From: Frankiales bacterium
GTDB taxonomy: Bacteria > Actinomycetota > Actinomycetes > Mycobacteriales > SCTD01
Reading direction: 5' to 3'
DNA: 35,542 nt
NCBI GenBank assembly: GCA_025965475.1
Contig: JAOPWV010000070.1
Coordinates: 1 to 35,542, forward strand
Shown piece after piece: positions 14,996 to 33,842 of the stretch. Numbering within the stretch: the stretch's first letter is position 1; every line of letters begins with the position of its first letter. The notes under the pieces were generated by a model. The model worked only from the letters and a program-made list of their open reading frames with translations, searched no databases and had not been told where the DNA came from. A program made the translations under genes and the position numbers.

Positions 14996-15063
14996 CGTCC
15001 GCCTCCGGGCCTCCACCTGCGAGGCACACGCTGACCGCCGGACCGATCGGCGTCAACCGCGGG

Positions 15064-15951
15064 TCAGGTGCCTTCGTGGACCGAGGCCCGATCGACCAGC
15101 AACTGCAGGAACTCCGCGGCAGGAGGCGCCAAGGGCTGCCCGGCCCGCCACACGACGCCCAGCTCCCGGTACGCGAACCGCTCGGCGAGCCGGACGGTGG
15201 CCACGTCCGTGCCCGCGGCGAGCCGGGGAAGCACCGATACGCCGACGCCGGCGCGGACCATGCCCCACACGATGGACAGCTGGCCCGTCTCGACCGTGAC
15301 GCGCGGCGCGAACCCGGCGCGGTTGCAGACCCGGTCCATCAGCTCACGCAGCCCGGAGCTCTGGCGCAGCGCGACGAAGTCCTCGTCGGCGAGGTCGAGC
15401 AGCCGGATCCGGTCCCGGCCGGCGAACGCGCTGCCCGGCGGCACCAGCGCCACGAGAGGTTCCCGCACCAGCGGCCGGTCCTCGAGGTCGTCGCGCGTCC
15501 TGGGCAGCCGGATGATGGCCAGGTCGAGCTGCCCCGCGTGGACCATCCGCTCGAACTCCACCGAGACGTCCTGCTCGAGCAGCGTGGTCTGGACGCCGGG
15601 GTGGGCCTGCTTGAACGTCGCGAGGACATCGGGCAGCAGGTGGGCACCCACGCTCGGCAGCGCCCCGAGCGCCAGGCGGCCGTGCCGCAGGCCGCGTACG
15701 TCGGCCATCCGGTCCCGGGCCTGCTCGACCTCGAACAGCGCGCGTTCCGCGTGCTGCAGGAAGACCTCACCGGCCGCGGTGAGCTGCACGCTGCGCCCGA
15801 GCCGTTCGAAAAGCTGGACGCCGAGCTCCTGCTCGAGCTTGCGTACCTGGACCGACAGCGACGGCTGGGCGAGGTAGAGCTCCTCCGCCGCGCGTGTGAA
15901 GTTGCCCGCCCGGGCGACCGCGGCGACGTACCGCAGCTGGTGCAGTTCCAT
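15064..15951 (-). CDS. LysR-family transcriptional regulator
   Basis: This is a 295-residue LysR-type regulator. The N-terminal winged HTH (residues 1-62) reads MELHQLRYVAAVARAGNFTRAAEELYLAQPSLSVQVRKLEQELG and ends in LFERLGRSVQLTAAG. A linker helix and the periplasmic-binding-protein-like effector domain follow (about 90-290). It resembles CatR/OxyR-like regulators of aromatic catabolism. Unusually for LysR, no divergent gene is present: the P450 gene lies upstream on the same strand behind a large hairpin, and CYTH-CHAD follows. Its targets could be the P450 or the UbiD operon. The RBS is weak. Confidence 0.92.
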   Translation of the reverse strand: MELHQLRYVAAVARAGNFTRAAEELYLAQPSLSVQVRKLEQELGVQLFERLGRSVQLTAAGEVFLQHAERALFEVEQARDRMADVRGLRHGRLALGALPSVGAHLLPDVLATFKQAHPGVQTTLLEQDVSVEFERMVHAGQLDLAIIRLPRTRDDLEDRPLVREPLVALVPPGSAFAGRDRIRLLDLADEDFVALRQSSGLRELMDRVCNRAGFAPRVTVETGQLSIVWGMVRAGVGVSVLPRLAAGTDVATVRLAERFAYRELGVVWRAGQPLAPPAAEFLQLLVDRASVHEGT

Positions 15952-19539: not shown

Positions 19540-20250
19540 TCAGGCGCCGGCGATCCCGCCGGGAGGCGCGACAGGGACCGCCGCGTCGTCGAAGTGCTCC
19601 AGGGCGACCTGCCGTGACCAGGTCACGTGCTCACGCATGAGAGTCTCGGCCAGGTCACCGTCGCGGTCGCGGAGGGCGTCCAGGATCGCCCGGTGCTGCC
19701 GGTTCGCCGTGCCGGACTGTCGGGACGGGTACGCGTAGCGGGACCGGTACGTGACCGTGAACGCGAGCACCTGGCTCGTGATCGTCTGCAGGAACTGGCT
19801 GCCCGTCGCCGCGCTGATGCCGACGTGGAACGCGAGATCGGCCTGCGCCTGCTCGATGGCGGTACCCCGCGTCCCGATCCGGCGGAGCCGGGCGTACGCC
19901 TCCTCGAGCTGGGCGAGGTGCGCGTCCGTCAGGGTCTCGGCGGCGGTGCGGGCGGCGTAGGACTCGATGACGGCGCGAAGGGAGTAGATCTGGGCGACGT
20001 CGCGCGCGGTGATCTCGCGGACCGTCGCGCCCCGGTTGGGGGTGAGGTCGACCAGCCCCTCCCCCTGGAGGATGAACATCGCCTCCCGGATCGGGGTACG
20101 GCTGATGCCCAGCTGCTCGGCAAGGAGCCGCTCGGGCATCGCCTCGCCCGGCTTGAGGCGACCGGCGAGGATGGCCTCCCGCAGGACGCGCGCGGCGCCC
20201 TCGCTGGTCCGGGTGGCCATGGGTATGGGCTCGGGGCCCAAGAGGTCCAT
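19540..20250 (-). CDS. GntR-family (FCD) regulator, probable repressor of the hydroxypyridine locus
   Basis: This 236-residue regulator has an N-terminal winged HTH (about residues 14-80, with ERLLAEQLGISRTPIREAMFILQGEGLV) and an FCD effector domain (about 85-215). The metal/ligand residues expected in FCD proteins are present: Asp138 and His142 (DLAFH), His186 (QHRAI) and His208 (REHV). Family members usually bind short palindromes built around GTATAC or GTnnnAC and are released by carboxylate effectors. Two identical GTATAC-containing sites lie in the divergent promoter region 1.8-2.0 kb away, and this is the only regulator between the MFS gene and the operon. The ATG at 20250 is used; ATG 20220 is an alternative. 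Confidence 0.92.
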   Translation of the reverse strand: MDLLGPEPIPMATRTSEGAARVLREAILAGRLKPGEAMPERLLAEQLGISRTPIREAMFILQGEGLVDLTPNRGATVREITARDVAQIYSLRAVIESYAARTAAETLTDAHLAQLEEAYARLRRIGTRGTAIEQAQADLAFHVGISAATGSQFLQTITSQVLAFTVTYRSRYAYPSRQSGTANRQHRAILDALRDRDGDLAETLMREHVTWSRQVALEHFDDAAVPVAPPGGIAGA

Positions 20251-20375: not shown

Positions 20376-20417
20376 CTGCGCGGCGCAGGGGAAGTTCACT
20401 CCCCCTGCGCCGCGCAG
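20376..20417 (-). terminator. strong hairpin after the Amt-like gene
   Basis: CTGCGCGGCGCAGGGG (20376-20391) and CCCCTGCGCCGCGCAG (20402-20417) make a perfect 16-bp GC-rich stem with a 10-base loop. It begins 34 bases past the Amt-like stop codon in the direction of transcription, and separates that gene from the GntR gene on the same strand. There is no T-tract. Confidence 0.7.
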
Positions 20418-20451: not shown

Positions 20452-21864
20452 TCAGCGCCTACCGGCCGGGACGTTGTCCGCGGTGGGCCCGGTGCGGGCG
20501 CCGGGGATGGCGACCACCGGCGGCTCGAGGTCGTCGCCGAAGTTGTGCATGTCCCAGTTGCTGGCGTCGAGGCCCGCGATCTCGGCCTCCTCGGTCACCC
20601 GCAGGCCACCGAACCGCTCGAAGAACAGGCACATGATCAGGCAGGGGACGCCCGCGACCAGCATCGTCGCGACGATGCCGGCCAGCTGCCACCACGGCGT
20701 GATCGTGGCGTGGCCGAGGGCGTACTCGCCCTTGAGGCCCGGGTAGCCGCCGGTCTTCGTCCCCCACTGCAGGAAGCCGGTCAGCAGGGCACCGGCGACG
20801 CCCGGGCCGAGGGCCAGCGGGATGACCTTGGGCTCGTCGATCCGGACGCGGCGCAGCAGGGCTGCCGTGCCCAGCGAGACGATCGGGCCGAGGGCGCCGA
20901 CGATCAGGCACTTCACCGGGTTGCCGATGTCGAACAGCGTCCCGCCCATCACCACGCCGGCGATCGGCCCGAGCAACGCCCAGTTCGCCTCGCGACGGCG
21001 GTAGGCGATGATCGTGCCCACGGTGCCGCCGCCGAGCAGCGCGGCGAACAGGTTCATGATGACCATGCCGAGCCCGCTCTGGGTCATCGAGACGCCGAAG
21101 TAGCCGGTGCCCGGGATGACGTAGCCGCTTCCGATGGTGATGAAGGGCAGCGCGAACAGGATCAGCAGCACACCTGCGCCGACGAGCCCGAGGTTGTGCG
21201 GGACGGGCTTGATGCCGGATTCGTGGTCACGGATGGCGCCGAGACGCGGGCCGACCCGCCAGGCGAGCACGAGCACCCACGTGCCGGCGAAGATGTACAG
21301 CGGGAAGATGCCGTCGAAGTCGTGCGTACCGCGGTTGGTCAGCGGGGAGAGCGAGCCCCAGCACAGGTAGCCGACCAGCGGCGAGAGCACCAGGCCGATC
21401 ACGAGCGACATGATGTACAGCGGCAGGGCCTTGATCCGCTCGACGACCCCGGTGTGGATCAGGGCCATGGTCGCCATCGTGAAGGTCACGAAGAAGACGA
21501 GGAAGATCTGCAGTACGTCGGCCTCGGGCAGCACCTTCGGGTCGATGGTGATGGCCGTGTTCGCGACGAACTGGCCGCCGATCCACCAGTCCTTGAAGGC
21601 CTGCCGCAGCGGGTGGGGGACCCCGAAGGCCGTGTTGAACTGCCACTGCCAGATGGCGTAACCGCAGATCAGCGTGCCGAGGCCGCCGATCATCGCGGCC
21701 GAGATCTTCTGGATCATCGTGTCCAGGACGTTGCGGCGGCGTACCAGGCCCATGTCCATCAGCGCGAGCCCGAGGACGACGAGCAGAACGGCCACTGCGC
21801 CGAGCGTGTTGATGAAGGTCACCAGCATGTTTGCGGTGGTGACCTGTTCCGGGAACGTTGGCAT
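20452..21864 (-). CDS. Amt/Mep/Rh-family permease lacking the twin pore histidines
   Basis: This is a 470-residue membrane protein with about 11 helices. Amt landmarks include GLVRRRNVLDTM (39-50; cf. GLIRGKNVL of AmtB), HDFDG (181-185; cf. LDFAGG), IKPVPHNL (218-225; cf. KPHNL), the repeat ending RIDEPKVI (341-348; cf. RVDDPCDV), and the cytosolic tail GLRVTEEAEIAGLD (420-433; cf. GLRVPEEQEREGLD). Both histidines that line the AmtB pore are missing. His168 aligns with Tyr190 (PLYIFAG), and His318 falls in PLALGPGVAG (349-358), where there is no His. Transport of ammonium by the standard route is therefore doubtful. AGGAGG precedes the ATG at 21864. It is divergent from the hydroxypyridine operon under an identical operator, suggesting a role in uptake of the N-heterocycle or handling of its nitrogen. 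Confidence 0.8.
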   Translation of the reverse strand: MPTFPEQVTTANMLVTFINTLGAVAVLLVVLGLALMDMGLVRRRNVLDTMIQKISAAMIGGLGTLICGYAIWQWQFNTAFGVPHPLRQAFKDWWIGGQFVANTAITIDPKVLPEADVLQIFLVFFVTFTMATMALIHTGVVERIKALPLYIMSLVIGLVLSPLVGYLCWGSLSPLTNRGTHDFDGIFPLYIFAGTWVLVLAWRVGPRLGAIRDHESGIKPVPHNLGLVGAGVLLILFALPFITIGSGYVIPGTGYFGVSMTQSGLGMVIMNLFAALLGGGTVGTIIAYRRREANWALLGPIAGVVMGGTLFDIGNPVKCLIVGALGPIVSLGTAALLRRVRIDEPKVIPLALGPGVAGALLTGFLQWGTKTGGYPGLKGEYALGHATITPWWQLAGIVATMLVAGVPCLIMCLFFERFGGLRVTEEAEIAGLDASNWDMHNFGDDLEPPVVAIPGARTGPTADNVPAGRR

Positions 21865-22017: not shown

Positions 22018-22046
22018 AAGGTATACACGTATGCCCCTGTCCGCAA
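22018..22046 (-). promoter_or_regulatory. Amt-like gene promoter with operator copy 1
   Basis: On the minus strand, TTGCGG (22046-22041), a 17-base spacer and TACCTT (22023-22018) form a plausible promoter. The 15-base site GGTATACACGTATGC (plus-strand 22020-22034) overlaps the -10 and half the spacer, the position expected for a repressor. It is identical to the site at 22273-22287. The core holds GTATAC and the half-site pair ATAC-AC-GTAT, typical of FCD-type GntR operators. Confidence 0.55.
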
Positions 22047-22251
22047 GACCCCAGTTTCCGGCGAGCCGCCAGCCGTCGCGGTTTCGCAGAGGTACGGCGT
22101 AGTACGGCGCGTTTTGGGCCGTTCACGGCCCGCCATCGACCACTTGTCCGGAGTTTTACCGCCCGCAGACCAGACGACAACCAGCGCGGCCGCCGGCGCT
22201 CTGTACCGGCAAAACCCCTGCGGTTGAGGGGGATTCACCGTTCGCAACCTC

Positions 22252-22287
22252 TAGACACGGCGATCGGGTATCGGTATACACGTATGC
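22252..22287 (+). promoter_or_regulatory. catabolic operon promoter with operator copy 2
   Basis: TAGACA (22252-22257), a 17-base spacer and TATACA (22275-22280) form a good sigma-70-like promoter; the first hexamer matches TTGACA at five of six positions. GGTATACACGTATGC (22273-22287) covers the -10. Repressor binding would block polymerase directly. The start codon of the first gene lies 44 bases past the site. Confidence 0.6.
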
Positions 22288-22330
22288 AAGAGGCGATTCC
22301 GGCGCCTCACTGACGGCAGGGGCACCACAG

Positions 22331-23029
22331 GTGGTCGATGCTCAAACCGCTTCGGTCTACGACCGCGCCGGCTTCGGGCGCCCTGTGCCGAGGGGGCAGC
22401 GCCCGGCGGTTCTCGTCGTCGACTTCACCTACGGGTTCACCGACCCGGCGTACCCCACGGGCTCCGACATGTCCCCGCAGGTGCTGGCCACGACCAGGCT
22501 GCTCGCGGTTGCCCGCAGCAAGGGCCTGCCGGTCATCTTCACGACGATCGCGTACGACGCGGGCCAGCTCCGCACGCTCACCTGGCTGCGCAAGGCGCCA
22601 GGGATGGCCGCCCTCGTCCTGGGCGGCCGGCTCGTCGAGGTGGATGATCGGCTGGACCGGCGGGAGGAGGAGACGGTGCTGGTGAAGACCGGCGCATCCG
22701 CCTTCTTCGGTACGCCGCTGTCCTCGCAGCTCGCCGCCGCGCAGGTCGACACCCTTGTCGTCACCGGAGCCACCACGAGCGGCTGCGTCCGGGCCAGCGT
22801 CGTCGACGCGGTGCAGAACGGCTACCCCACCCTCGTCCCCCGTGACTGCGTCGCCGACCGGGCCCGGGCCCCGCACGACGCAAGCCTGTTCGACATGAAC
22901 GAGAAGTACGCGGACGTCATCGCCCTCGACGAGGTTCTCTCCTACCTGCAGTCCGTACCGGCTCGTCCGAACGATCCCCAGTTCTCGCCCCACTCCACGA
23001 TCACGTCCCAGGCGGAGGCCCAGGCATGA
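22331..23029 (+). CDS. nicF: isochorismatase-family amidohydrolase, probable maleamate amidohydrolase (NicF-like)
   Basis: This is a 232-residue cysteine hydrolase of the isochorismatase fold. The catalytic triad is visible: Asp31 (VVDFTYGF), Lys119 (LVKTGASAF) and Cys152 (TTSGCVRAS), with the cis-peptide region before the cysteine (VTGATTSGC). In this operon, next to NicD-, NicE- and NicX-like genes, the expected reaction is maleamate + water to maleate + ammonia. N-carbamoylsarcosine amidase-like activity on another amide is an alternative. It starts at GTG 22331, with GCAGGGG upstream. It is the first gene of the operon and overlaps the next by four bases. Confidence 0.85.
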   Translation: MVDAQTASVYDRAGFGRPVPRGQRPAVLVVDFTYGFTDPAYPTGSDMSPQVLATTRLLAVARSKGLPVIFTTIAYDAGQLRTLTWLRKAPGMAALVLGGRLVEVDDRLDRREEETVLVKTGASAFFGTPLSSQLAAAQVDTLVVTGATTSGCVRASVVDAVQNGYPTLVPRDCVADRARAPHDASLFDMNEKYADVIALDEVLSYLQSVPARPNDPQFSPHSTITSQAEAQA

Positions 23030-24903
23030 CCCTGACCAGTTCGAACGACCCGGCGGACTCGTCCGCAGCGGCAGCCGGGCGGTTCATCAGCCCTTTCGCC
23101 GTGGAGACACCCGCGGGCGCTGAAGGCTGGGAGAGCATGTACCCCTACTACGCGCTGCTCAGCGAGGAGCGGCGCGAGCTGGACGACGGCAAGTTCTGGT
23201 TCTTCGACGGGATGCACAACCCGGAGCCGCTGTACCCGTTCGACACCATCATGACGGAGAACTGGTGGGTCGCCGCCAGCCAGATGTCGACCAGGGTCTG
23301 GCCGGTGCCCCCGGCCGGCGGTATCGACCACCGCATCATCAACGGCTACCTGTACATCAGCCCGAACGCCGTGACCGACCCGGTGGAGATCGGCCGCCGC
23401 GCCGAGTTGTTCGGCGTGCGGGCAGGGCACTACTTCCAGAACTGGGACGAGATCTACGACCAGTGGGTCACGAAGGCCACCGACTGCATCGACCGCCTCA
23501 AGGCGATCCAGTTCGCCCCGCTGCCGGACACCGAGCCGGAGAGCAGCGTCTTCGAGCACCGCGGCCTGTACTCCAGCTACCAGCTGCTGACGACGTACGG
23601 CGAACTGCTGAACAACCTGTTCGAGATGGGCTCGTACCACTTCGAGATGCTCAACCTCGGGTACGGCGCCTACCTCACGTTCCGTGAGTTCTGCCAGGCC
23701 GCGTTCCCGGGCATCAGCGACCAGACCATCGCGAGCATGGTGTCGGGCATCGACATCCTGCTGTTCCGGCCGGACGACGAGGTGCGCGGCCTCGCGAAGC
23801 TCGCGGTCGAGTTGGACCTGGCCGAGCTCATCCTCCCGGAGAACACTCCCGAGGCGACCCTGACGGCCATCGCCGGGCACGGCAACGGCGCCAAGTGGCT
23901 CGCCGCCTTCGAGGTGGCGAAGGACCCGTGGTTCTGGTTCTCGACCGGCGCCGGCTACACGCACTCGGACCGCGCCTGGATCGACGACCTGCGCCTGCCC
24001 TTCACCGCGATGCGCGGCTACATCCAGGGCCTGCAGAACGGCGAGGACATCCGCCGGCCGCTCGACGCGATTCTCGCCGAGCGCGTGCGGGTGACCGACG
24101 AGTACCGCTCGTACCTGCCCACCGAGGACGACCGGGACTCCTTCGACGGCCTGGTCGAGCTGGCCCGCAAGGTGTTCCCGTTCGTGGAGAACCACAACTT
24201 CTACATCGAGCACTGGCACCACTCGGTGTTCTGGTCGAAGGTGCGCGAACTCGGCGACGTGTTCGTCGCGCACAACTTCCTCGACGACCGCGAGGACATC
24301 TTCTACCTGCACCGCAACGAGATCTACTCCGCGCTGTACGACCTCAACATCGGCTGGGCGACCGGCACCGAGGCGCGCGGCGAGACCTACTGGCGTCCCG
24401 AGGTGGAGCGCCGCAGGCGCATCCGGGACGTCCTCAAGCAGTGGGCACCGCAGCCGGCGCTCGGTGTGCCGCCGGAGTTCATCACCGAGCCGCTGACCGT
24501 CATGCTCTGGGGCATCACCCAGGAGACCGTGCAGGAATGGCTCGGGGCCGGCGGAGAGGACGGCGGCGACGGTGAACTGCGGGGCGTGGCCGCCTCTGCC
24601 GGTAAGGCCACCGGCCGCGCCCGTGTCATCACCGACCCGGAGCAGCTGCACGAGGTGGAGGACGGCGACATCCTCGTCTGCCGCATCACGGCGCCGAGCT
24701 GGGCGCCGGTGTTCTCGCGCCTGTCGGCCGCCGTCTCCGACGTCGGCGGCATCATGGCCCACACCGCCATCGTCTGCCGTGAGTACGGCCTGCCCGCCGT
24801 CGTGGGCACCGGTTTCGCCACCGTCACCATCCGCACCGGCCAGCTCATCGAGGTCGACGGCAACCGCGGCACCGTCCGGATCCTCGAGGAGAACGCGCAG
24901 TGA
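23026..24903 (+). CDS. PEP-utilising phosphohistidine protein, phenylphosphate-synthase subunit-1-like
   Basis: This is a 625-residue protein. Its C-terminal ~90 residues are the PEP-utilisers mobile domain: GDILVCRITAPSWAPVF, then GGIMAHTAIVCREYGLPAVVGTG with phosphorylatable His579, then GQLIEVDGNRGTV. The N-terminal 530 residues, tryptophan- and tyrosine-rich, are unlike the PEP/pyruvate barrel, and no such barrel is present. Size (about 70 kDa) and layout match the larger subunit of phenylphosphate synthase, which carries a phosphohistidine near residue 569 and phosphorylates phenol; the ATP-grasp half is the next gene. I infer that it accepts phosphate from the partner and transfers it to the ring hydroxyl of a hydroxypyridine. 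A PEP-utilising protein is reported as needed for 3-hydroxypyridine dehydrogenase activity in Ensifer adhaerens HP1 (recalled). Confidence 0.85.
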   Translation: MTLTSSNDPADSSAAAAGRFISPFAVETPAGAEGWESMYPYYALLSEERRELDDGKFWFFDGMHNPEPLYPFDTIMTENWWVAASQMSTRVWPVPPAGGIDHRIINGYLYISPNAVTDPVEIGRRAELFGVRAGHYFQNWDEIYDQWVTKATDCIDRLKAIQFAPLPDTEPESSVFEHRGLYSSYQLLTTYGELLNNLFEMGSYHFEMLNLGYGAYLTFREFCQAAFPGISDQTIASMVSGIDILLFRPDDEVRGLAKLAVELDLAELILPENTPEATLTAIAGHGNGAKWLAAFEVAKDPWFWFSTGAGYTHSDRAWIDDLRLPFTAMRGYIQGLQNGEDIRRPLDAILAERVRVTDEYRSYLPTEDDRDSFDGLVELARKVFPFVENHNFYIEHWHHSVFWSKVRELGDVFVAHNFLDDREDIFYLHRNEIYSALYDLNIGWATGTEARGETYWRPEVERRRRIRDVLKQWAPQPALGVPPEFITEPLTVMLWGITQETVQEWLGAGGEDGGDGELRGVAASAGKATGRARVITDPEQLHEVEDGDILVCRITAPSWAPVFSRLSAAVSDVGGIMAHTAIVCREYGLPAVVGTGFATVTIRTGQLIEVDGNRGTVRILEENAQ

Positions 24904-25997
24904 ACTCCCCCTCTCCCTACGTCCTGTGGCTCGACGACCCGAGCGCGCCCGAGAGCAAGCTGCTCGGCGGCAAGTTCGGCAGCCTCGCGCAGATGACCGA
25001 GGCGGGCTTCGCCGTACCGCCTGGCTTCGGTGTCACGACGACGGCGTACCGCCACTTCCTGAAGGCGGCCGGCCTGGCCGACCGGGCCCGTGAGGTGCGG
25101 GCCCGCGCCGTGACCGCGGACCTCGCCGAGGTGCAGGCGCTCAGCGCCGAGTTCACCACCGCCGTCGGGGCCGCGCCGCTGCCGGCCGACCTGGAGACGG
25201 CCGTCCGCGAGGCGTACGCGGAACTCGAGAGCCGTACCGGACAGGCCGGGCTCCCGGTCGCCGTCCGCTCGAGCGGGGAGTCCGAGGACCTGGCCGGCGC
25301 CAGCTTTGCGGGCCAGTACGACACCTTCCTGTGGATCAAGGGTGCGGAGGAGGTGCTGCAGCACGTGCGCCGCTGCTGGGCCGGCATGTTCGGCGCGGCG
25401 GTGCTGACCTACCGGCCTGAGGGCGACGCGTCGATCACGACGGCCGACCACGGCATCTGCGTCGGCATCCAGCAGATGGTCGAGGCCCGCGCCGCCGGCG
25501 TCATGTTCACGCTCGACCCCGTCACCGGTGACCGTTCCAAGGTCGTCATCGAGGGCTGCTGGGGTCTCGGTGAGGGCGTCGTCAGCGGCGGCATCACCCC
25601 GAGCCGCTACGTCGTGGACAAGGTGACCTTCGAGATCCTGCGCCGCGAGGTCGCCGTGCAGGAGACGCAGTTCCGCTTCGACCCGGCGATCTCGGCGGTC
25701 GGTCTCGTCCCGGTCGAGGCGGACCGCAGGGAGATGACCTGCCTGGAGGACGTCCACATCGACGCGCTGGCCCGCCTGGCCAAGCGCATCGAGCAGCACC
25801 GGGGCGCGCCGCAGGACATCGAATGGGCAGTCAGCGAATCCGGCGACGTGCATGTGCTCCAGGTGCGGCCGGAGACGGTGTGGAGCCGGCGTGCGGCCAC
25901 CCAGGTCATCGGGGAGCGCAAGTCCGCCGTCGACCACGTCCTGGCCCGGTTCGCCGGTGTCGGGCTGACGCAGCGCGCGGGCAGTCCTCAGTCGTGA
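24900..25997 (+). CDS. PEP synthase/pyruvate phosphate dikinase N-terminal (ATP-grasp) protein
   Basis: This 365-residue protein consists only of the ATP-binding domain of PEP synthase/PPDK. Motifs in order: GGKFGSLAQMTEAGFAVPPGF (start of domain, 23-43), AVRSSGESEDLAGASFAGQYDTFL (121-144), QQMVEARAAGVMFTLDPVTGD (191-211), EGCWGLGEGVVSG (218-230), QDIEWA and LQVRPETVWS. It lacks the phosphohistidine and PEP domains, which are supplied or replaced by the preceding gene. The split matches the 40-kDa subunit of phenylphosphate synthase, which uses ATP to load phosphate on the partner histidine. GTG 24900 overlaps the upstream stop; GAGGAG lies eight bases before it. The 24-kDa CBS-domain third subunit of that enzyme is not encoded here. 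Confidence 0.88.
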   Translation: MNSPSPYVLWLDDPSAPESKLLGGKFGSLAQMTEAGFAVPPGFGVTTTAYRHFLKAAGLADRAREVRARAVTADLAEVQALSAEFTTAVGAAPLPADLETAVREAYAELESRTGQAGLPVAVRSSGESEDLAGASFAGQYDTFLWIKGAEEVLQHVRRCWAGMFGAAVLTYRPEGDASITTADHGICVGIQQMVEARAAGVMFTLDPVTGDRSKVVIEGCWGLGEGVVSGGITPSRYVVDKVTFEILRREVAVQETQFRFDPAISAVGLVPVEADRREMTCLEDVHIDALARLAKRIEQHRGAPQDIEWAVSESGDVHVLQVRPETVWSRRAATQVIGERKSAVDHVLARFAGVGLTQRAGSPQS

Positions 25998-26872
25998 AGG
26001 CGGCAGCGTTCGACTACCACCGGCCCGCGAGCGTCTCGGAGGCGGTGAGCTACCTCGACCAGTACGGCGGCACCGCCCGTGTCCTGGCGGGTGGGCAGAG
26101 CCTGGTGCCCATGCTCAACATGCGGCTGTGGCGGCCGGCCGCACTCATCGACATCAACGCGATCGAGGAGCTCGGCCAGGTGCGCCTGGACGGGGACAGC
26201 ACCGTTCTCGGTGCCCTGGTGCGGTACGCCCAGATCGAGCGTGGACCTGTCGTCGCCGAACGGCTGCCCCTGCTCGCCTACATCGTCCGCCACATCGGTG
26301 ACCGCCAGGTCCGCAACCGGGGCACCATCGGCGGCAGCCTCGTGCAGGGCGACCCGACGGGGGAGATGCCGCTGGCCTGCCTGGTCCTGGACGCGGTGGT
26401 GCACGTGACGGGTCCGGCGGGGACGCGTGAGATTCCCCTGGCCGACCTGTACGAGGGGTCCTACGCGACGGCTCTCGACCTCGAGGAGCTGCTGACCGAG
26501 ATCATCTTCCCGCGCAGCCCGCAGTATTTCGCGTTCGCCGAGTGCTGCCGGCGGCACAACGACTTCGCGGTCGTCAGCGCCGTCGCCACCGGCGACCGGG
26601 GACCGGACGGCCGCTGGTGCGACGTGCGCCTCGCGCTCGGCGGCGTGGCCGACACCCCCGTGCGCGCCGAACGGGCGGCTGAACTTCTGTCCGGCACCGA
26701 GCTGTCCGACGCCGACATCCGCGACGCGGCGGAGGCGGCCATGCAGGTCGTCGACCCGCCCAGCGACGTGCGTGCGTCGGCGGAGTACCGGCGCCACCTG
26801 GTTCCGGTGTACGTGGAGAAGGTGCTGACCGGCCTGCGGGCCGCAGCAACCGACGAGAGGGAACAGCGGTGA
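25994..26872 (+). CDS. molybdenum hydroxylase FAD-binding (medium) subunit
   Basis: This is the 292-residue FAD subunit of a xanthine-dehydrogenase-family hydroxylase (CoxM/NdhF type). The FAD pyrophosphate loops LAGGQSLVPMLNMR (31-44) and VRNRGTIGGSLVQGDPTGEMP (106-126) are intact, and a C-terminal CO-dehydrogenase flavoprotein domain follows (about 180-285). It would take electrons from the 2Fe-2S subunit (30946-31455). The GTG overlaps the stop of the ATP-grasp gene (GTGA) with no strong RBS of its own, so it is probably translated by coupling. It is separated from its small and large partner subunits by 4.1 kb containing the SRPBCC, HD and ring-cleavage genes. Confidence 0.93.
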   Translation: MKAAAFDYHRPASVSEAVSYLDQYGGTARVLAGGQSLVPMLNMRLWRPAALIDINAIEELGQVRLDGDSTVLGALVRYAQIERGPVVAERLPLLAYIVRHIGDRQVRNRGTIGGSLVQGDPTGEMPLACLVLDAVVHVTGPAGTREIPLADLYEGSYATALDLEELLTEIIFPRSPQYFAFAECCRRHNDFAVVSAVATGDRGPDGRWCDVRLALGGVADTPVRAERAAELLSGTELSDADIRDAAEAAMQVVDPPSDVRASAEYRRHLVPVYVEKVLTGLRAAATDEREQR

Positions 26873-27543
26873 AGCTCCACGAGGAGTTCGACGTCGCCAA
26901 GCCGGTGGCGGCGATCTGGACGTTCTTCGAGCAGCCGGAGAAGGTCGCGCAGTGCGTGCCCGGCGTCGAACAGCTCACGGTGGTCGACGCGGACAACGTC
27001 AACGTCCGGCTGACCCAGAGCATCGGCCCGATGACGGCCACCTTCGACGCGAAGGTGAAGATCGTCGAGCGGGTGTCCGAGGAACTGATGCGGTTCACCG
27101 CAACCGGGCGCAGCGTCCGGGGGGCCATGGGCAACGTCCGGGCCTCGAACACGGTGCACCTGACCGCGGTGGACGGCGGGACCCGGGTGCGGGTCGAGGG
27201 TGACGTCACCCTGGCGGGTGCCCTCGGCAGCGTCGGGCAGAAGGTCGTCGCGAGCCAGGCCAGCAAGGTGACGGCGCAGTTCGCCCGCAACCTCGAGACG
27301 GTGCTCAACGGCGGTCAGGTCGAGGACGCCTCGCGTGAGCGAGCGGGAACCAAGCGTGCCCCGTCGGCGCCTGCGTCAGCGGCGCCGGCCGCTCCGTCCA
27401 CGACGGCCCCGGCACAGTCCCTGCCGCCGGTGTCCGAGCTCCCTCCCCTCGACCCGTGGCCGCGGGCTGCGGCAGTGCTGAGCGCGGTCTCGGTCGTCCT
27501 CAGCCTCCTGGCCCTGCTGCGCTCCCGCCGGGCCGCACGATGA
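26869..27543 (+). CDS. SRPBCC (CoxG-like) protein with C-terminal membrane anchor
   Basis: This is a 224-residue protein. Residues 1-150 form a CoxG-type SRPBCC domain (MKLHEEFDVAKPVAAIWTFFEQPEKVAQCVPGVEQL, then ASQASKVTAQFARNLETVL). A proline/alanine-rich linker (about 158-195) and one transmembrane helix (about 200-217, AAVLSAVSVVLSLLALL) ending in RSRRAAR follow. CoxG recruits CO dehydrogenase to the membrane. In some N-heterocycle hydroxylases an SRPBCC domain is fused to a subunit, but here it is separate, as described for the four-component 3-hydroxypyridine dehydrogenase of Ensifer. The likely role is tethering the Mo hydroxylase to the respiratory chain. GTG 26869 overlaps the FAD-subunit stop. 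Confidence 0.9.
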   Translation: MKLHEEFDVAKPVAAIWTFFEQPEKVAQCVPGVEQLTVVDADNVNVRLTQSIGPMTATFDAKVKIVERVSEELMRFTATGRSVRGAMGNVRASNTVHLTAVDGGTRVRVEGDVTLAGALGSVGQKVVASQASKVTAQFARNLETVLNGGQVEDASRERAGTKRAPSAPASAAPAAPSTTAPAQSLPPVSELPPLDPWPRAAAVLSAVSVVLSLLALLRSRRAAR

Positions 27544-28169
27544 CGGTGGCTCTGCCGTGGACGGCGCCCGAGGTGGCCCTCGGGACCGACCTCGAGCGTG
27601 CCGCCGCGCAGTGGATCGAGCCGTACAACCAGCAGCAGCACCTGATGCGGACGCGTGACTGGCTCGTGCACCTGTCGCCGGGCGCCAACGTCGAGATGCG
27701 CCTCGCGGCGATGACCCACGACATCGAGCGGATGTTCCCGGGCGGTCCGGTGCTGGACCTGGCCTCGCGGGACTGGGACGACCCGTTCTACCTGTTCGCG
27801 CACGGCACGCGCTCCGCGGAGATCGTCGCCGACTGGATGGGCGAGCTGGAGCCGGCGTGCGTGGCCGCCGACCGCAAGGAGGTACGCCGGCTCGTCGCCC
27901 TGCACGAGGTGGGCGGGCTGCGCGGCGCGGACGAGATCCAGGCAGCCGACTCGCTCTCCTTCCTCGAGAGCCTGGCGGATGTCGCGCGCGACTGGGTCCT
28001 GTCCGGCGCTTGCTCGCGCGAGAAGGCCGCTGCCAAGCTGTACTACTCGGTCGACCGGATCCGCATACCCGCTGCCGAAGAACCCGCGGCGCAACTTCTC
28101 GAGTGGGCGCTCGACCGCCTGCCCGCCGCTGCCCCCGCCGCCGACCGCGACCGGGTGGCGGCGCCATGA
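27540..28169 (+). CDS. HD-domain metal-dependent phosphohydrolase-like protein
   Basis: This 209-residue protein is not a pyridine enzyme that I recognise. Its residue pattern fits an HD domain: His34 (HLMRTR) or His44, then His60-Asp61 in AAMTHDIERMF, His88 in AHGTRSAEIVADWM, His122 in VALHEVGG, and Asp137 in IQAADSLSFLESL. This H...HD...H...H...D order is that of HD phosphohydrolases, including two-metal types. The ATG overlaps the SRPBCC stop (ATGA), in the middle of the operon. Given the phosphotransferase pair two genes upstream, I infer that it removes phosphate from a phosphorylated dihydroxypyridine or corrects a dead-end phosphoester. A nucleotide-clearing or regulatory role is the alternative. 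Confidence 0.75.
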   Translation: MTVALPWTAPEVALGTDLERAAAQWIEPYNQQQHLMRTRDWLVHLSPGANVEMRLAAMTHDIERMFPGGPVLDLASRDWDDPFYLFAHGTRSAEIVADWMGELEPACVAADRKEVRRLVALHEVGGLRGADEIQAADSLSFLESLADVARDWVLSGACSREKAAAKLYYSVDRIRIPAAEEPAAQLLEWALDRLPAAAPAADRDRVAAP

Positions 28170-28197
28170 CCACCACCGACTCAGGGACGTGTCACAG

Positions 28198-28947
28198 ATG
28201 AACCGACGTATCGGCCTTATCGTGCCGAGCTCCAACACCACGATGGAGACGGAGATCCCGGAGCTCCTGCGGCGTTACGCCGAGGAGCACGCCGACTTCA
28301 CGGCGACCTTCCATGCCAGCCGCGCTCGGCTGCACACCGTCGACGCCGAGTCGCTGGCCAAGATGGTCGACGACGGCGAGCGCTGCGCGGCCGAAGTCGG
28401 TGACGCGCAGGTCGACGTGGTGGGCTATGCGTGCCTCGTCGCGGTCATGGCGCAGGGCAACGGCGCGCACGTCGGCATCGAGGAGCGGCTGCAGAAGGTC
28501 CTGTCCGAGAGCCGGTCGGCCGAGGCGAAGATGACGAGCAGTGCCGGTGCCCTGGTGCGCACCCTGCTCGAGCTCGGCCTGCGCCGGGTCGCCATCGTCG
28601 CGCCGTACATGCCGCAGCTGACGAGCCTCGTGGTCGGCTACCTGGAGGATGCCGGCATCAGTGTCGCCGACAGCGTCAGCCTGTCGGTCGCCGACAACTG
28701 CGAGGTCGGCCGGCTCGACCCGGAGAACCTGCTCGACCACGTCAAGCGCCTCGACACCAGCGAGGTCGACGGGGTCGTCCTGTCGGCCTGCGTGCAGATG
28801 CCGTCGCTGCCCGCCGTGCAGCGGGCCCAGGACACCCTGGGTCTGCCCGTGGTCACGGCCGCCACGGCGACCACCCGCGAGATCCTGCTCGCGCTGGGCC
28901 TCGAGCCGCGCGTCCGCGACGCCGGCGCTGCTCTGGCGGGTACGTGA
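28198..28947 (+). CDS. nicE: maleate cis-trans isomerase (Asp/Glu racemase superfamily), NicE/MaiA-like
   Basis: This is a 249-residue enzyme converting maleate to fumarate, the last step of the pathway. The maleate-isomerase N-terminus RIGLIVPSSNTTMETEIP (4-21) is diagnostic. The two catalytic cysteines are Cys79 (VVGYACLVAVM) and Cys198 (VVLSACVQMPSL), close to positions 76-82 and 194-200 in characterised family members. The ATG at 28198 follows AGGGA ten bases upstream; GTG 28189 is in frame but too close to that RBS. It lies 28 bp after the HD gene and overlaps the next gene by four bases. Arylmalonate decarboxylase-type activity is a family alternative made unlikely by the neighbours. 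Confidence 0.9.
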   Translation: MNRRIGLIVPSSNTTMETEIPELLRRYAEEHADFTATFHASRARLHTVDAESLAKMVDDGERCAAEVGDAQVDVVGYACLVAVMAQGNGAHVGIEERLQKVLSESRSAEAKMTSSAGALVRTLLELGLRRVAIVAPYMPQLTSLVVGYLEDAGISVADSVSLSVADNCEVGRLDPENLLDHVKRLDTSEVDGVVLSACVQMPSLPAVQRAQDTLGLPVVTAATATTREILLALGLEPRVRDAGAALAGT

Positions 28948-29807
28948 GCATCGCGCTCAGCGGTCGCGACGTGACCGTGCAGGCCAACGGCCTGCGCCAC
29001 CACGTCCTCACCTACGGCCAGGCAGGCGGTCCTGACCTCCTGGTGCTGCCGGGCATCACGAGCCCGGCGGCAACGGCCGACTTCCTTGGTGTGCTCTTCG
29101 CGGAGATGGGTTACCGGGTCACCGTGCCGGACCTGCGCGGGCGCGGCGGGACGGACCGGCCGCCGACCGGCAGCTACCGGCTGACCGACTACGCCGCCGA
29201 CGTGGCCGCGCTGGTGGCCGCGCTCGAGCTGCGCACCCCCACCGTCCTCGGGCACTCGCTGGGGGCTCGCATCGCCGCGGCATACGCCGTTCTGCACGCG
29301 CCGGACGACCACGGACAGCTGATCCTCGTCGACCCGCCCACCTCGGGCCCGGGCCGCGGTCCGTACCCGACCTCGCGCGACGCGTTCCTCGAGCAGCTGC
29401 AGCAGGCCCAGCGGGGGACCCACGCCGACGAGGTGCGCCGGTTCTATCCGACGTGGCCCGAGCGGGAACTGCAGATCCGGGCCGACGTACTCGCGACCTG
29501 CGACGAGACAGCCGTGCTCGAAACGCACGCGGGCTTCGAGTCGGAGGACTTCTTCCCGTACTGGCGCAAGCTGACCGGACCCGTCGTCCTGGTCCGCGGT
29601 GGCGACAGTCCTGTCGTCCCGCCGGCTGCTGCCGAGGACCTGCACCGCGAGCAGCCGGGATTCGACATCGTCACGGTTCCCGGCGCGGGCCACATGGTCC
29701 CGTGGGACAACCTGCCCGGGTTTCTCGACGCCGTACGCCCGTACCTGCGGTCCCCCGGGGGGCCGCTCCCGTTTTCGCCGACCTCCACCCCCGACGGCCA
29801 GGAGTAG
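28944..29807 (+). CDS. nicD: alpha/beta hydrolase, probable N-formylmaleamate deformylase (NicD-like)
   Basis: This is a 287-residue alpha/beta hydrolase: oxyanion loop LPGITSP (35-41), VPDLRGRGGTDRP (61-73), nucleophile elbow LGHSLGAR with Ser105, Asp130 in ILVDPP and His250 in GAGHMVPWDN. The acid 25 residues after the serine is the arrangement reported for P. putida NicD (Ser101, Asp125, His245, recalled), rather than the usual late Asp. The reaction would be N-formylmaleamate + water to maleamate + formate. GTG 28944 overlaps the maleate isomerase stop. The next gene encodes the dioxygenase that makes its substrate, three bases downstream. Confidence 0.87.
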   Translation: MSIALSGRDVTVQANGLRHHVLTYGQAGGPDLLVLPGITSPAATADFLGVLFAEMGYRVTVPDLRGRGGTDRPPTGSYRLTDYAADVAALVAALELRTPTVLGHSLGARIAAAYAVLHAPDDHGQLILVDPPTSGPGRGPYPTSRDAFLEQLQQAQRGTHADEVRRFYPTWPERELQIRADVLATCDETAVLETHAGFESEDFFPYWRKLTGPVVLVRGGDSPVVPPAAAEDLHREQPGFDIVTVPGAGHMVPWDNLPGFLDAVRPYLRSPGGPLPFSPTSTPDGQE

Positions 29808-29810
29808 TTC

Positions 29811-30845
29811 ATGGACCAGAGCCAGCTCAACGAGATGTGCCGCCGCCAGCTCGAGCTCAGCGCCGTGCACGAGGGCGAGAGTGTGGTCGTGCTGTCGCAG
29901 GGCCACGACCGCGCGGACTACGCGGACGCGTTCCTCTACGCCGCCCGCAGTCTGGGCGCGCAGGCGTACCACATGCGCCTGTCCACGCCGCAGTCCTCGA
30001 CCGGTGCGTGGGCGGTCGGCGAGTCCGAGCTGGCCAGCAACCCGTACGCCGTCGAGGCGCTCAAGCAGGCCGACATGCTGGTGGACCTCGCCTTTTTGCT
30101 GTTCAGCAAGGAGCAGTTCGCGATCCAGGGCGCCGGCACCCGGATCCTCACGGCGGTCGAGCCTGCCCCGCTGCTGGCCAAGCTGTTCCCGACGCGCGAG
30201 CTGCGCGACCGCGTCGAGGTCGGGGGCGAGCTGCTGGCCAGGGCCCAGAACATGCGGATCACCAGCCCGCACGGCACCGACGTCACCTACCGGCTCGGCG
30301 TGTACCCGACGATCACCGAGTACGGCTACACCGACCAGCCGGGCCGCTGGGACCACTGGCCGGCGGCATTCGTGTTCACGGGTGCCGCCGACGACGGCGT
30401 GGACGGCCAGATCGTCATCGCGCCGGGCGACGTCCTGCTGCCGTTCAACACCTACGTGAACACGCCGATCACCCTCACGATCGAGCAGGGTTTCATCACC
30501 GACATCAAGGGTGACCTCGACGCCGACCTGCTGCACTCGTACATCAAGAGTTTCGACGACCCGCGCGGCTACGGCATGTCGCACGTGGGCTGGGGTCTGG
30601 ACCACCGGGCCAACTGGCACGGGCTCACGCAGTTCCCGGGCGGCATGGGCATGGAGCTGCGCTCCTTCTACGGAAACGTCATGTTCTCCATCGGGCCGAA
30701 CAACGAGCTCGGTGGACCCAACGACACGCCCTGCCACTTCGACATCCCGATGCGCGGCGCGAGCCTGTTCCTCGACGACGAGCCGATCGTCGTGGACGGC
30801 GACCTCGCCGTGAAGGAGATGCAGCGGACCGACCGCCGCAGCTGA
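29811..30845 (+). CDS. nicX: 2,5-dihydroxypyridine 5,6-dioxygenase (NicX-like)
   Basis: This 344-residue protein belongs to the M29-aminopeptidase-like family that includes NicX, the Fe(II) ring-opening dioxygenase making N-formylmaleamate. The putative iron ligands are His258 (GMSHVGWG), His309 and Asp311 (PCHFD). Their spacing (51 and 2) is close to the His265/His318/Asp320 set reported for P. putida NicX (recalled). Upstream landmarks are VTYRLGVYPTITEYG and the PGG loop (FPGGMGMELRSFYGN). AGGAG lies six bases before the ATG. A leucyl-aminopeptidase annotation is the common misnomer. Together with NicD-, NicE- and NicF-like neighbours it fixes 2,5-dihydroxypyridine as the central intermediate. 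Confidence 0.9.
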   Translation: MDQSQLNEMCRRQLELSAVHEGESVVVLSQGHDRADYADAFLYAARSLGAQAYHMRLSTPQSSTGAWAVGESELASNPYAVEALKQADMLVDLAFLLFSKEQFAIQGAGTRILTAVEPAPLLAKLFPTRELRDRVEVGGELLARAQNMRITSPHGTDVTYRLGVYPTITEYGYTDQPGRWDHWPAAFVFTGAADDGVDGQIVIAPGDVLLPFNTYVNTPITLTIEQGFITDIKGDLDADLLHSYIKSFDDPRGYGMSHVGWGLDHRANWHGLTQFPGGMGMELRSFYGNVMFSIGPNNELGGPNDTPCHFDIPMRGASLFLDDEPIVVDGDLAVKEMQRTDRRS

Positions 30846-30945
30846 CGGCGTCCCGTACTCCCTCGACCGACGACTCCCTGGTGGACATCGCTGTGAACGT
30901 GACCGAACGCTGTGCCGACGCGCCCAAGGGTGGAGGTGTGTGCCG

Positions 30946-31455
30946 ATGAGCGCCCTCGAGCCCGAGGTGGACATCACCGTGACCGTCAACGGTGAGATCG
31001 TGACCGCCCGCGCACCTGCCCGGCTCCATGCGGCGGACTTCCTGCGTCAGCGGCTCGGCCTGACCGGGACGCACATCGGCTGCGAGCAGGGTGTCTGCGG
31101 CATGTGCACCGTCCTCGTCGACGGCGAGGCGGTGAAGTCCTGCCTGATGCTGGCCGTACAGCTCGACGGCAGGCAGGTGCAGACGGTGGAGTCGCTGGCC
31201 GAGGACGACCGCCTCAACCCGCTTCAGCAGGCGTTCAAGGACGAGCACGCGCTGCAGTGCGGGTTCTGCACCCCCGGTTTCCTCATGACGGCGACGGCGC
31301 TCGCGCGGCGGGGGGAGCGGCTGTCCCGCAACGAGATCCGCGAGGAGATCGCCGGCGTGCTGTGCCGGTGCACCGGCTACGACAACATCGTCAAGGCGAT
31401 CGAGAAGCACCTCGAGGAGACCGCCGACGCGGATGCGGCGCGGGTGGCCCGATGA
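30946..31455 (+). CDS. molybdenum hydroxylase 2Fe-2S (small) subunit
   Basis: This is a 169-residue CoxS/XdhC-type iron-sulfur subunit with two clusters. The plant-ferredoxin-type site is Cys46, Cys51, Cys54 (CEQGVCGMC) and Cys66. The helical site is Cys105, Cys108 (CGFCTPG), Cys140 and Cys142 (CRCTGY). It passes electrons from the Mo centre to the FAD subunit. The ATG at 30946 is nine bases after GGAGG; a GTG at 30940 is only three bases from it. The 100 bp before it show no clear promoter or terminator, so it is probably part of the same transcript. It overlaps the large subunit gene by four bases. Confidence 0.95.
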   Translation: MSALEPEVDITVTVNGEIVTARAPARLHAADFLRQRLGLTGTHIGCEQGVCGMCTVLVDGEAVKSCLMLAVQLDGRQVQTVESLAEDDRLNPLQQAFKDEHALQCGFCTPGFLMTATALARRGERLSRNEIREEIAGVLCRCTGYDNIVKAIEKHLEETADADAARVAR

Positions 31456-33842
31456 CCCACATCCTGGAGCGGCCGACCGGTCCGCTCGGCGGGTCCCACG
31501 ACGACCGCACCGACGCGATAGGCAGCAACGTCCCGCGCAAGGAGGACGACCGCCTGCTGCGCGGCGACGGGCGTTTCACCGACGACGTCGAGCCGCCGCA
31601 CGTCCTGCACATGGCGGTCGGGCGCTGCCCGTTCCCGCATGCGCAGATCCTCGGCATCGACACGTCCGCGGCGCTGGAGGTCGAGGGGGTCAAGCACATC
31701 CTCATCGGCTCCGACGTTCGTGCGGCCACCGAGCCGCTGACGGTCCTGCGGCCGGTGCCGGGCGCCCCCGATCTGCACTACTACGCGCTGGCCCAGGACG
31801 TCGCGACGTACGAGGGACAGCCCGTCGTCAGCGTGGTGGCGACGAGCCGGCACATCGCCGAGGACGCGCTCGAGCTGATCGACATCGACTACGAGCCGCT
31901 GCCCCACGTGGTGGACGTGATCGCCGCGCTGGAGCCGGACGCCCCCGTCATCCACCCGCACGTGCTCGGGTCCAACCTGCTCGTCTCGAACAGGGACGAG
32001 TCCGGTGACCCGGAGGCCCGGATGGCCGAGGCGGACGTCGTCGTCGCTGGCCGGTTCCGCATCAACCGCGTGACCGGGCTGCCCATGGAGACCCGCGGCA
32101 TCGTCGTCGAGTGGCGCCCGGGCGCGCGCGAGCTCACCGTGCACACGTCGACGCAGGTCCCGCACCTGGTGCGCAAGCAGCTCGCCGAGTCGCTGCGGCT
32201 GGACGAGGGCGAGATCCGCGCGGTGGCCTCCGACGTCGGCGGCGGCTTCGGGCTCAAGCTCGGTATCTACCCCGAGGACGTGCTGGCCTGCCTGCATGCG
32301 ATGGCCCTGCGCCGGCCGGTCAAGTGGACCGAGGACCGGTCCGAGCACTTCCGCGCCACGACGCACGCCCGCGAGGCCGTGCACGACTTCCGGATCGGCG
32401 CGACGGCCGACGGTCGGATGACGGCGATGACGAACGTCTACGCCACCGACCTCGGCGGGTGGAACTCCTCGTTCGGCTCGGCCCAGCTGTCCAGCGTCGT
32501 CTTCAACGGGCCGTACAAGATCGAGGACGGCTCGGTCGAGCGCCGGGTGATCGTGACCAACAAGACGCCGATCGGGGCGTACCGCGGGTACGGCCAGCCG
32601 GAAGTCAACTTCGCGTACGAGCGGCTGGTCGACCAGCTGGCCCGCCGGCTCGACATGGACCCGCTCGAGCTGCGCGCCATGAACATGGTGCGCCCGACCG
32701 ACATGCCGTGGCGCAACCCCAGCGGCGCCGTCTACGACAGCGGTGACTACGAGCTGTGCCTGCGGATGGCGGGCGACGCGGTCGGCTACGACGAACACCG
32801 CAAGGCCGTCCGCGGACCCCGTCCGGACGGGCGGTACGTCGGCATCGGCCTGTCGTCCTTCGTCGAGCGGACCGGCTACGCGAGCTCGCGATTCCTGGCC
32901 CGCCGTGGGTCGCAGTTCGGCGCGCACGAGAGCGTCACGTTGCGGGCCAACCGGTCCGGCGGCGTCGACCTGTACACCGGCGTCTCGACCATGGGACAGA
33001 GCAGCGAGACGGCGTTCGCCCAGGTGACGAGCAGCGTGCTCGGCATCGCGTACGACAAGGTGAGCGTGCACGCCGGCGACACGGCCGCGTCGCCGTTGAA
33101 CACCGGTGCCTTCGCGTCCCGCACGATGATCGCGGCGGCGGGGGCGCTCAAGGACGCGGCGACGCAGCTGCGCGACAAGACACTGCGCCTGGCGGCCTGG
33201 CGCCTCGAGACCGAGGTCGGCACGCTGGAGGTCGCCGGCGACCGGGTGCAGCACCGGTCCGACCCGGACCGGTACGTCCTGCTGTCCGAGGTCTTCTCGA
33301 TGGCGATCCTCGGACAGGGGCTGCCGCCGGACGAGGAGCCGGGCCTGGAGGCGACGGCGCACTTCGAGCCGCCGGACGCGGCGTACTCGTTCGGCACGGC
33401 CGCGGCAGTCGTCTCCGTCGATCCGAACACCGGCGACTTCGACGTCGAGCGCTTCGTCCTGGTCCACGACTGCGGCACCGTCGTGAACCCGAAGGTGGTC
33501 GACGGGCAGGTCCGTGGCGCGCTGGTCCAGGGGCTCGGCGCGGCGCTGTCCGAGGAGCTGCGGTACGACGCCGACAGCGGGCAGCTGGTCAACGGCACGA
33601 TGATGGACTACTTCGCGCCGAGCGCCGCCGACGTGCCTCCCATCGAGCTGCTGCACACCGAGGTGCCGTCACCGGTCACCACGTTCGGGGTCCGCGGGGT
33701 CGGCGAGGTGGGCACGATCCCGCCGGGCGCCGCGGTGGCCAACGCGATCTGCGACGCGCTTGCGGACTTCGGCGTGGAGCTGTCGACGCTGCCCATCACG
33801 CCCGAAAGCGTCTGGAAGGCGCTTCGGGAGCAGCGCGCCTGA
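31452..33842 (+). CDS. molybdenum hydroxylase molybdopterin (large) subunit
   Basis: This is a 796-residue catalytic subunit of the xanthine dehydrogenase/CO dehydrogenase family, binding the molybdopterin cytosine dinucleotide cofactor. Motifs: GSNVPRKEDDRLLRGDGRFTDDV at the N-terminus, DVGGGFGLKLGIYPEDV, TPIGAYRGYGQPE, STMGQSSETAFAQV, and GVRGVGEVGTIPPGAAVANAI with catalytic Glu752. The CO-dehydrogenase active-site loop with selenyl-cysteine ligand (VAYRCSFR) is replaced by GAYRGYGQ, so this is a hydroxylase, not a CO dehydrogenase. The inferred reaction is water-derived hydroxylation at the ring carbon next to nitrogen, giving 2,5-dihydroxypyridine or its phosphoester. No cofactor-maturation gene (XdhC type) lies in the window. 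Confidence 0.95.
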   Translation: MTHILERPTGPLGGSHDDRTDAIGSNVPRKEDDRLLRGDGRFTDDVEPPHVLHMAVGRCPFPHAQILGIDTSAALEVEGVKHILIGSDVRAATEPLTVLRPVPGAPDLHYYALAQDVATYEGQPVVSVVATSRHIAEDALELIDIDYEPLPHVVDVIAALEPDAPVIHPHVLGSNLLVSNRDESGDPEARMAEADVVVAGRFRINRVTGLPMETRGIVVEWRPGARELTVHTSTQVPHLVRKQLAESLRLDEGEIRAVASDVGGGFGLKLGIYPEDVLACLHAMALRRPVKWTEDRSEHFRATTHAREAVHDFRIGATADGRMTAMTNVYATDLGGWNSSFGSAQLSSVVFNGPYKIEDGSVERRVIVTNKTPIGAYRGYGQPEVNFAYERLVDQLARRLDMDPLELRAMNMVRPTDMPWRNPSGAVYDSGDYELCLRMAGDAVGYDEHRKAVRGPRPDGRYVGIGLSSFVERTGYASSRFLARRGSQFGAHESVTLRANRSGGVDLYTGVSTMGQSSETAFAQVTSSVLGIAYDKVSVHAGDTAASPLNTGAFASRTMIAAAGALKDAATQLRDKTLRLAAWRLETEVGTLEVAGDRVQHRSDPDRYVLLSEVFSMAILGQGLPPDEEPGLEATAHFEPPDAAYSFGTAAAVVSVDPNTGDFDVERFVLVHDCGTVVNPKVVDGQVRGALVQGLGAALSEELRYDADSGQLVNGTMMDYFAPSAADVPPIELLHTEVPSPVTTFGVRGVGEVGTIPPGAAVANAICDALADFGVELSTLPITPESVWKALREQRA

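Follow-up and report, generated by a model that had tools for sequence, protein, structure and literature searches.

The locus raises the question of why one and the same 15-mer, GGTATACACGTATGC, should stand twice in a single divergent intergenic region, and of which protein would read it. The window (the whole stretch of DNA analysed, 35 542 nucleotides from a Frankiales bacterium) carries two identical copies in the same orientation, at 22020–22034 and 22273–22287, exactly where the sequence-only reading had placed them; it had proposed that they are operators of a nearby FCD-type GntR protein at both divergent promoters. Allowing as many as three mismatches brought up no further match in the window (0.13 expected), and two matches were reached in none of 100 shuffles. 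In the 3.9-Mb genome of origin, the 14-base core GTATACACGTATGC occurs exactly only at both sites (with two extra matches at two mismatches), and the 16-mer GGTATACNNGTATGCC is found with zero or one mismatch solely at this locus. A wider regulon in that genome was considered and rejected: there are many matches with two or three mismatches, yet they are just about twice as frequent as those of the reversed control. Seven of the 394 genomes of the class contain GTATACNNGTATGCC, two of them at this locus (the window and G045) and five elsewhere; the reversed control gave four. No homologue of the window's GntR regulator was found within 1.5 kb of the match in the five off-locus genomes. Among 12 genomes carrying the locus, motif matches with zero or one mismatch fall mostly at the locus itself. 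A regulon extending beyond it was dropped here too, the off-locus matches of that quality being few (one sits within a recombinase-like reading frame) and no homologues of the locus genes being found near them. Judging from these counts, the regulon of the FCD/GntR protein appears local.

Comparable loci were collected by scanning the PEP-utilizer protein against 84 980 species genomes, which gave 75 loci. The operon is shared by 24 loci (window included; PEP-utilizer identity 68–86%), from Actinomycetes and one alphaproteobacterial MAG, and 52 loci with only a 40–52% identical PEP-utilizer homologue and without such a GntR served as the contrast set. The motif search at orthologous loci that had been proposed returned the motif in all 24 (ATAC-NN-GTAT exactly in 20, and with one or two mismatches in L028, L030, L031 and L038), and ATAC-NN-GTAT was found in none of the 52 loci of the contrast set. 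When gapped words were counted blindly in intergenic regions bounded only by gene edges, GTATAC-NN-GTATGC was recovered at no more than one mismatch in 22 of 23 (5–6 of 23 in shuffles). The FCD/GntR gene is present in every operon locus except two short contigs (L026 and L041) that end inside amt; it adjoins the divergon in each Actinomycete locus whose contig reaches that far, and belongs to the same cluster in the alphaproteobacterium. About twenty related bacteria thus have the sites at equivalent positions beside the same regulator gene, and we therefore take the sites to be, almost certainly, those at which that regulator binds; part of their likeness is due to descent, because most of the compared loci are Actinomycetes. 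It is very unlikely that the sites belong to a DNA-binding protein encoded elsewhere, with no part played by the nearby GntR gene. The lack of a site at gntR itself would suit that reading, but the gene stays beside the divergon or within the cluster, these genomes hardly contain the motif outside the locus, and it fits the FCD motif class (PMC4494728; PMC7797058).

With regard to the shape of the sites, the 15-mer itself stands, but 15 bp as the full unit does not: the conserved unit spans about 18 bp, TGGTATAC-NN-GTATGCCA. This is the enzyme-side consensus; the amt-side consensus is AACGTATAC-NN-GTATGCCA, its left flank doubling as the amt -10. The outer TGG and CCA mirror each other across NN, GTATAC is present in all sites but one, and nearly every actinobacterial site has GTATGC as its right half. 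The consensus of FCD operators is given as a palindrome TKGT/ACMA with GT and AC 2–3 nt apart (PMC4494728), and most enzyme-side sites show this feature in their left half, as TGGT-AT-AC. A literature search found no paper combining TGGTATAC with GntR and FCD. In another reading, each site would hold a pair of overlapping targets of the GTATAC type, GTATAC and GTATGC, set 8 bp apart and filled by two dimers, instead of one long palindrome. We consider this possible, if on balance doubtful: the usual FCD spacing of GT and AC (PMC4494728) fits GTATAC alone, the site of the alphaproteobacterial locus is TGGTATAC-TGGTATAC, and several dimers of NanR occupy tandem GGTATA repeats (PMC8012715), but both the TGG/CCA symmetry and the nearly constant GTATGC half speak for one palindrome, and dimers 8 bp apart might clash. 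The matter concerns binding detail and is compatible with the explanation preferred below.

In the alphaproteobacterial MAG (L086; 6879, 15036–15668), the operon is of the same type, the GntR is 53% identical and the site reads TGGTATACTGGTATACAA, a tandem plus inverted repeat. Such a locus suggests transfer between phyla.

The hexamers and 17-base spacers that had been described for the two promoters are there (Table 1), and comparison across loci bears out one promoter of the pair more than the other. On the minus strand TTG and a TAC-type -10 are kept in 14 loci, with the operator lying over both the spacer and the -10, which confirms the promoter predicted there. The plus-strand promoter is more doubtful, a TTG with a 16-base spacer being fixed in only 5 of 21 loci; the enzyme-side -35 is poorly conserved and the assignment of TAGACA/TATACA in the window is therefore uncertain. 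Most enzyme-side sites read TGG-TATAC, which is extended-10-like. A consensus promoter scan (9 of 12) found neither promoter, a T-run terminator scan likewise found nothing, and an Rfam search for an RNA element in the leaders gave no match. That the repeated 15-mer is a mere shared promoter or sigma-factor element seems to us hardly credible in spite of the resemblance of the enzyme-side TGG-TATACAT to an extended -10, since the copies point one way while the promoters point apart, no -10 takes in the GTATGCCA half, which is equally conserved, and the amt promoter has a separate -35 and -10.

Table 1. Features of the locus (positions in the window)
Feature	Position	Strand	Remarks
FCD/GntR regulator, VanR-type, presumed binder of both sites	19540–20250	-	domains, orthologues, fold
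Strong hairpin between amt and gntR	20376–20417	-	long perfect stem, terminator-like without T run
Amt/Rh-family membrane protein, presumed left-operator target	20452–21864	-	without both pore histidines
amt promoter -10 TACCTT	22018–22023	-	operator-overlapped; TAC(C/G)TT in 12 of 14 loci, close variants in L027 and L040
Putative amt-side operator	22018–22037	-	core GGTATACACGTATGC 22020–22034; in the -35/-10 spacer and over the amt -10; place kept in 14 loci
amt promoter -35 TTGCGG	22041–22046	-	TTG here in 14 of 14 loci, spacer 17–18
Putative catabolic-operon promoter TAGACA-17-TATACA	22252–22280	+	weak; TAGACA 22252–22257, TATACA 22275–22280; -35 without conservation
Putative enzyme-side operator	22271–22290	+	core 22273–22287; about 50–60 bp upstream of the catabolic operon; place kept in 21 loci, 4 with 1–2 mismatches
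Isochorismatase-family amidohydrolase, maleamate-amidase-like; operon gene 1 behind the right operator	22338–23029	+	
Remaining operon	23026–33842	+	PEP-utilizer-domain protein, PPDK-N protein, FAD subunit, CoxG-like, arylmalonate decarboxylase/maleate isomerase-like
Remaining operon, further members	within 23026–33842	+	deformylase-like hydrolase, 2,5-dihydroxypyridine dioxygenase homologue (29811–30845), 2Fe-2S and molybdopterin subunits

The number of sites varies with gene content. Two sites are found in 13 of the 17 loci with amt in the divergon, and a single operon-side site in all six loci without amt, where gntR directly faces the operon (13/17 versus 0/6 two-site loci; Fisher P = 0.002, naive to relatedness). 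The exceptions among the amt loci are L028, L030 and L031, with the enzyme-side site alone, and L040, with the amt-side site alone. The distance between paired sites is 145–253 bp, most often 178–199 bp, close to the 190 bp that separate the sites of Atu1419, and the structural match of the regulator to the tetrameric Atu1419 is close as well. Both points would suit a model in which an Atu1419-like tetramer holds both operators at once and the DNA between the divergent promoters is looped, which we nevertheless regard as rather improbable: there is no convincing helical phasing (R = 0.37 at 10.5 bp, naive P = 0.16, or 0.53 once near-duplicates are removed), loci without amt retain a single site, and the distance rises with intergenic length (r = 0.70, 11 loci), a behaviour read as a sign of separate sites by Suvorova et al. 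(PMC4494728). A site number that follows the presence of amt and a distance that increases with intergenic length agree with one operator for each promoter.

The regulator consists of an N-terminal GntR winged helix (PF00392, 58 bits) and a C-terminal FCD domain (PF07729, 95 bits), both above the cut-off. Four residues, R41, R51, R55 and N72, are invariant across 17 regulator orthologues and match, in order and with near-identical spacing, Arg59, Arg69, Arg73 and Asn89 of NanR, which contact bases (PMC8012715). D138, H142, H186 and H208 are likewise invariant in the 17 orthologues and correspond to the FCD Asp-His3 metal-ligand pattern; the regulator thus carries a predicted metal site of this kind. 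The pattern of one Asp and three His is typical of carboxylate-binding FCD proteins. The predicted model (mean pLDDT 87) has six effector-domain helices (82–106, 109–128, 131–148, 152–169, 176–194 and 198–224), as in the VanR type, and its best structural matches include Atu1419/VanR, AlkR and PmiR (Z 19.8–21.1).

On the enzyme side, the FAD, 2Fe-2S and molybdopterin genes code for subunits of one molybdenum hydroxylase. Homologues of the dioxygenase (versus 7cn3, 2,5-dihydroxypyridine 5,6-dioxygenase; E = 1.4e-89), the deformylase (versus 4l0c; E = 3.7e-50) and the amidase (versus 4l07, an isochorismatase-family hydrolase; E = 2.7e-73) stand in the same operon and complete the marker set of the 2,5-dihydroxypyridine (maleamate) pathway; by homology, this is an operon for the maleamate route of pyridine degradation. 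The molybdenum enzyme together with the PPDK-like pair we take to be 3-hydroxypyridine dehydrogenase, following work on Ensifer adhaerens HP1. The split PEP-utilizer/PPDK-N pair (23026–25997 in the window) lies inside the molybdenum-hydroxylase operon, and related pairs occur in other Actinomycetes and Alphaproteobacteria, some beside P450-like genes. One relative of the same family, G009:C114 (L021, 6944–10260), has isochorismatase, decarboxylase-like, deformylase and dioxygenase homologues without this pair, that is, the lower pathway alone, accompanied by other GntR genes.

On the opposite side, the Amt-like protein aligned to the ordinary Amt of the same genome (C80) has Tyr and Leu/Ala in the two pore-His columns, and its substrate may, to go by these residues, be other than ammonium. 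A sequence search for a solved structure matching it found none. Amt-like proteins lacking the pore His were also seen at L015 (776–2200) and in a paralogue in the same genome (G000:C122:24873–26177).

The comparative evidence strongly supports the proposal that each of the divergent promoters has an operator for the FCD-type GntR protein encoded nearby: from genus to genus the motif keeps company with the regulator, the site count tracks that of the structural promoters in the divergon, and the regulator has the predicted FCD fold and the Arg residues expected to contact bases. Very probably, both 15-mers are operator cores of a local, metal-dependent FCD/VanR-type repressor (19540–20250), which would shut two promoters until a pathway acid binds. 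What the comparison shows is the sites with their conservation and placement, the co-occurrence of the regulator, its predicted fold and its conserved residues; binding, repression and inducer are inferred, repression rather than activation being suggested by the position of the sites. Without inducer, the metal-loaded regulator would occupy both operators, the left one lying within the amt promoter between -35 and -10 and the right one where the pyridine-degradation operon begins, and would exclude RNA polymerase from both promoters. Once a pathway acid such as maleamate, maleate or a related carboxylate binds in the FCD pocket through the metal, the regulator would come off its sites, allowing joint transcription of the transporter-like gene and the entire 2,5-dihydroxypyridine pathway, each operator serving one promoter. 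More far-reaching, and in our estimate unlikely, is the idea that a composite FCD operator (two targets, with two dimers or one tetramer) couples the pyridine pathway to an Amt-fold protein that lacks the pore histidines and carries something other than ammonium, perhaps the pyridine itself.

The expression of gntR appears to follow another course. The absence of a third copy upstream of this gene, already remarked upon from the sequence, was confirmed, the best match having five mismatches in the window and three to five in 19 other loci. Autoregulation through a degenerate upstream site was likewise considered and rejected (nothing better than three mismatches in 20 loci). Hairpins of unrelated sequence lie between amt and gntR in all 10 loci checked (-37 to -49 kcal/mol, figures that have no matched control), and the one in the window is probably a terminator, so that gntR is likely transcribed on its own, beyond the control of the operators. 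This would explain why the third copy is missing; a gene without operator and behind a conserved hairpin is probably not autoregulated, and its expression is probably steady.

A literature search found no regulator for this pyridine-ring degradation operon, and the regulon is not described in the accessible part of the 2015 survey (PMC4494728). The locus therefore offers a specific candidate regulator–operator pair for an operon that is spread through many Actinomycetes. Such a pair would allow the inducer to be predicted and a pyridinol-responsive promoter to be designed, and it raises the question of why an amt-like gene lacking the pore His is, putatively, co-regulated with the pathway. As far as sequence comparison can tell, the locus would be a clear, if unremarkable, case of a switch of known type.

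Among known regulators, PmiR of Pseudomonas aeruginosa has a 2-methylisocitrate regulon, which differs from this locus. It is the closest solved structure by sequence (PDB 7xp0, 7xp1; E = 5.6e-27) and its fold is among the best matches (Z 20.9). NanR of Escherichia coli (PMC8012715) resembles the present protein in being an FCD regulator with GGTATA half-sites, a zinc site and the equivalent three Arg and one Asn; its sites are direct repeats and a 32-residue N-terminal extension is needed for cooperativity, whereas here the halves form an inverted pair with 2 bp at the centre, and the protein has a much shorter N-terminus. Atu1419 (VanR) of Agrobacterium fabrum is a zinc-containing FCD tetramer with two GTATAC-core palindromes 190 bp apart, for which DNA looping was proposed; its sites (10 bp, ATGTATACAT) lie in the atu1418-1419 divergent region, one over the -10 and one between -10 and -35 (PMC7797058). 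The two systems share a VanR-type FCD repressor (here predicted), the GTATAC core, two sites in similar placement, the control of an aromatic-compound pathway and a metal-containing effector pocket, predicted here from invariant residues. They differ in the length of the element (about 18 bp here versus 10 bp), in the left target, which here is the amt-like gene, and in the regulator gene, which stands under one of its own sites in Atu1419 and has no site here; moreover, the effector of Atu1419 is a folate (PMC7797058), and looping is unsupported by phasing here. The arrangement is also like that of the FadR-subfamily double-site divergons described in PMC4494728, with two intergenic sites, each near its own gene, at a distance that grows with intergenic length. 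The double-site FadR-subfamily divergon is a known class and Atu1419/VanR a close precedent; what differs here is the conserved element, about 18 bp long and nearly symmetric, in which two GTATAC-type targets may overlap, and also the gene that is targeted on the left.
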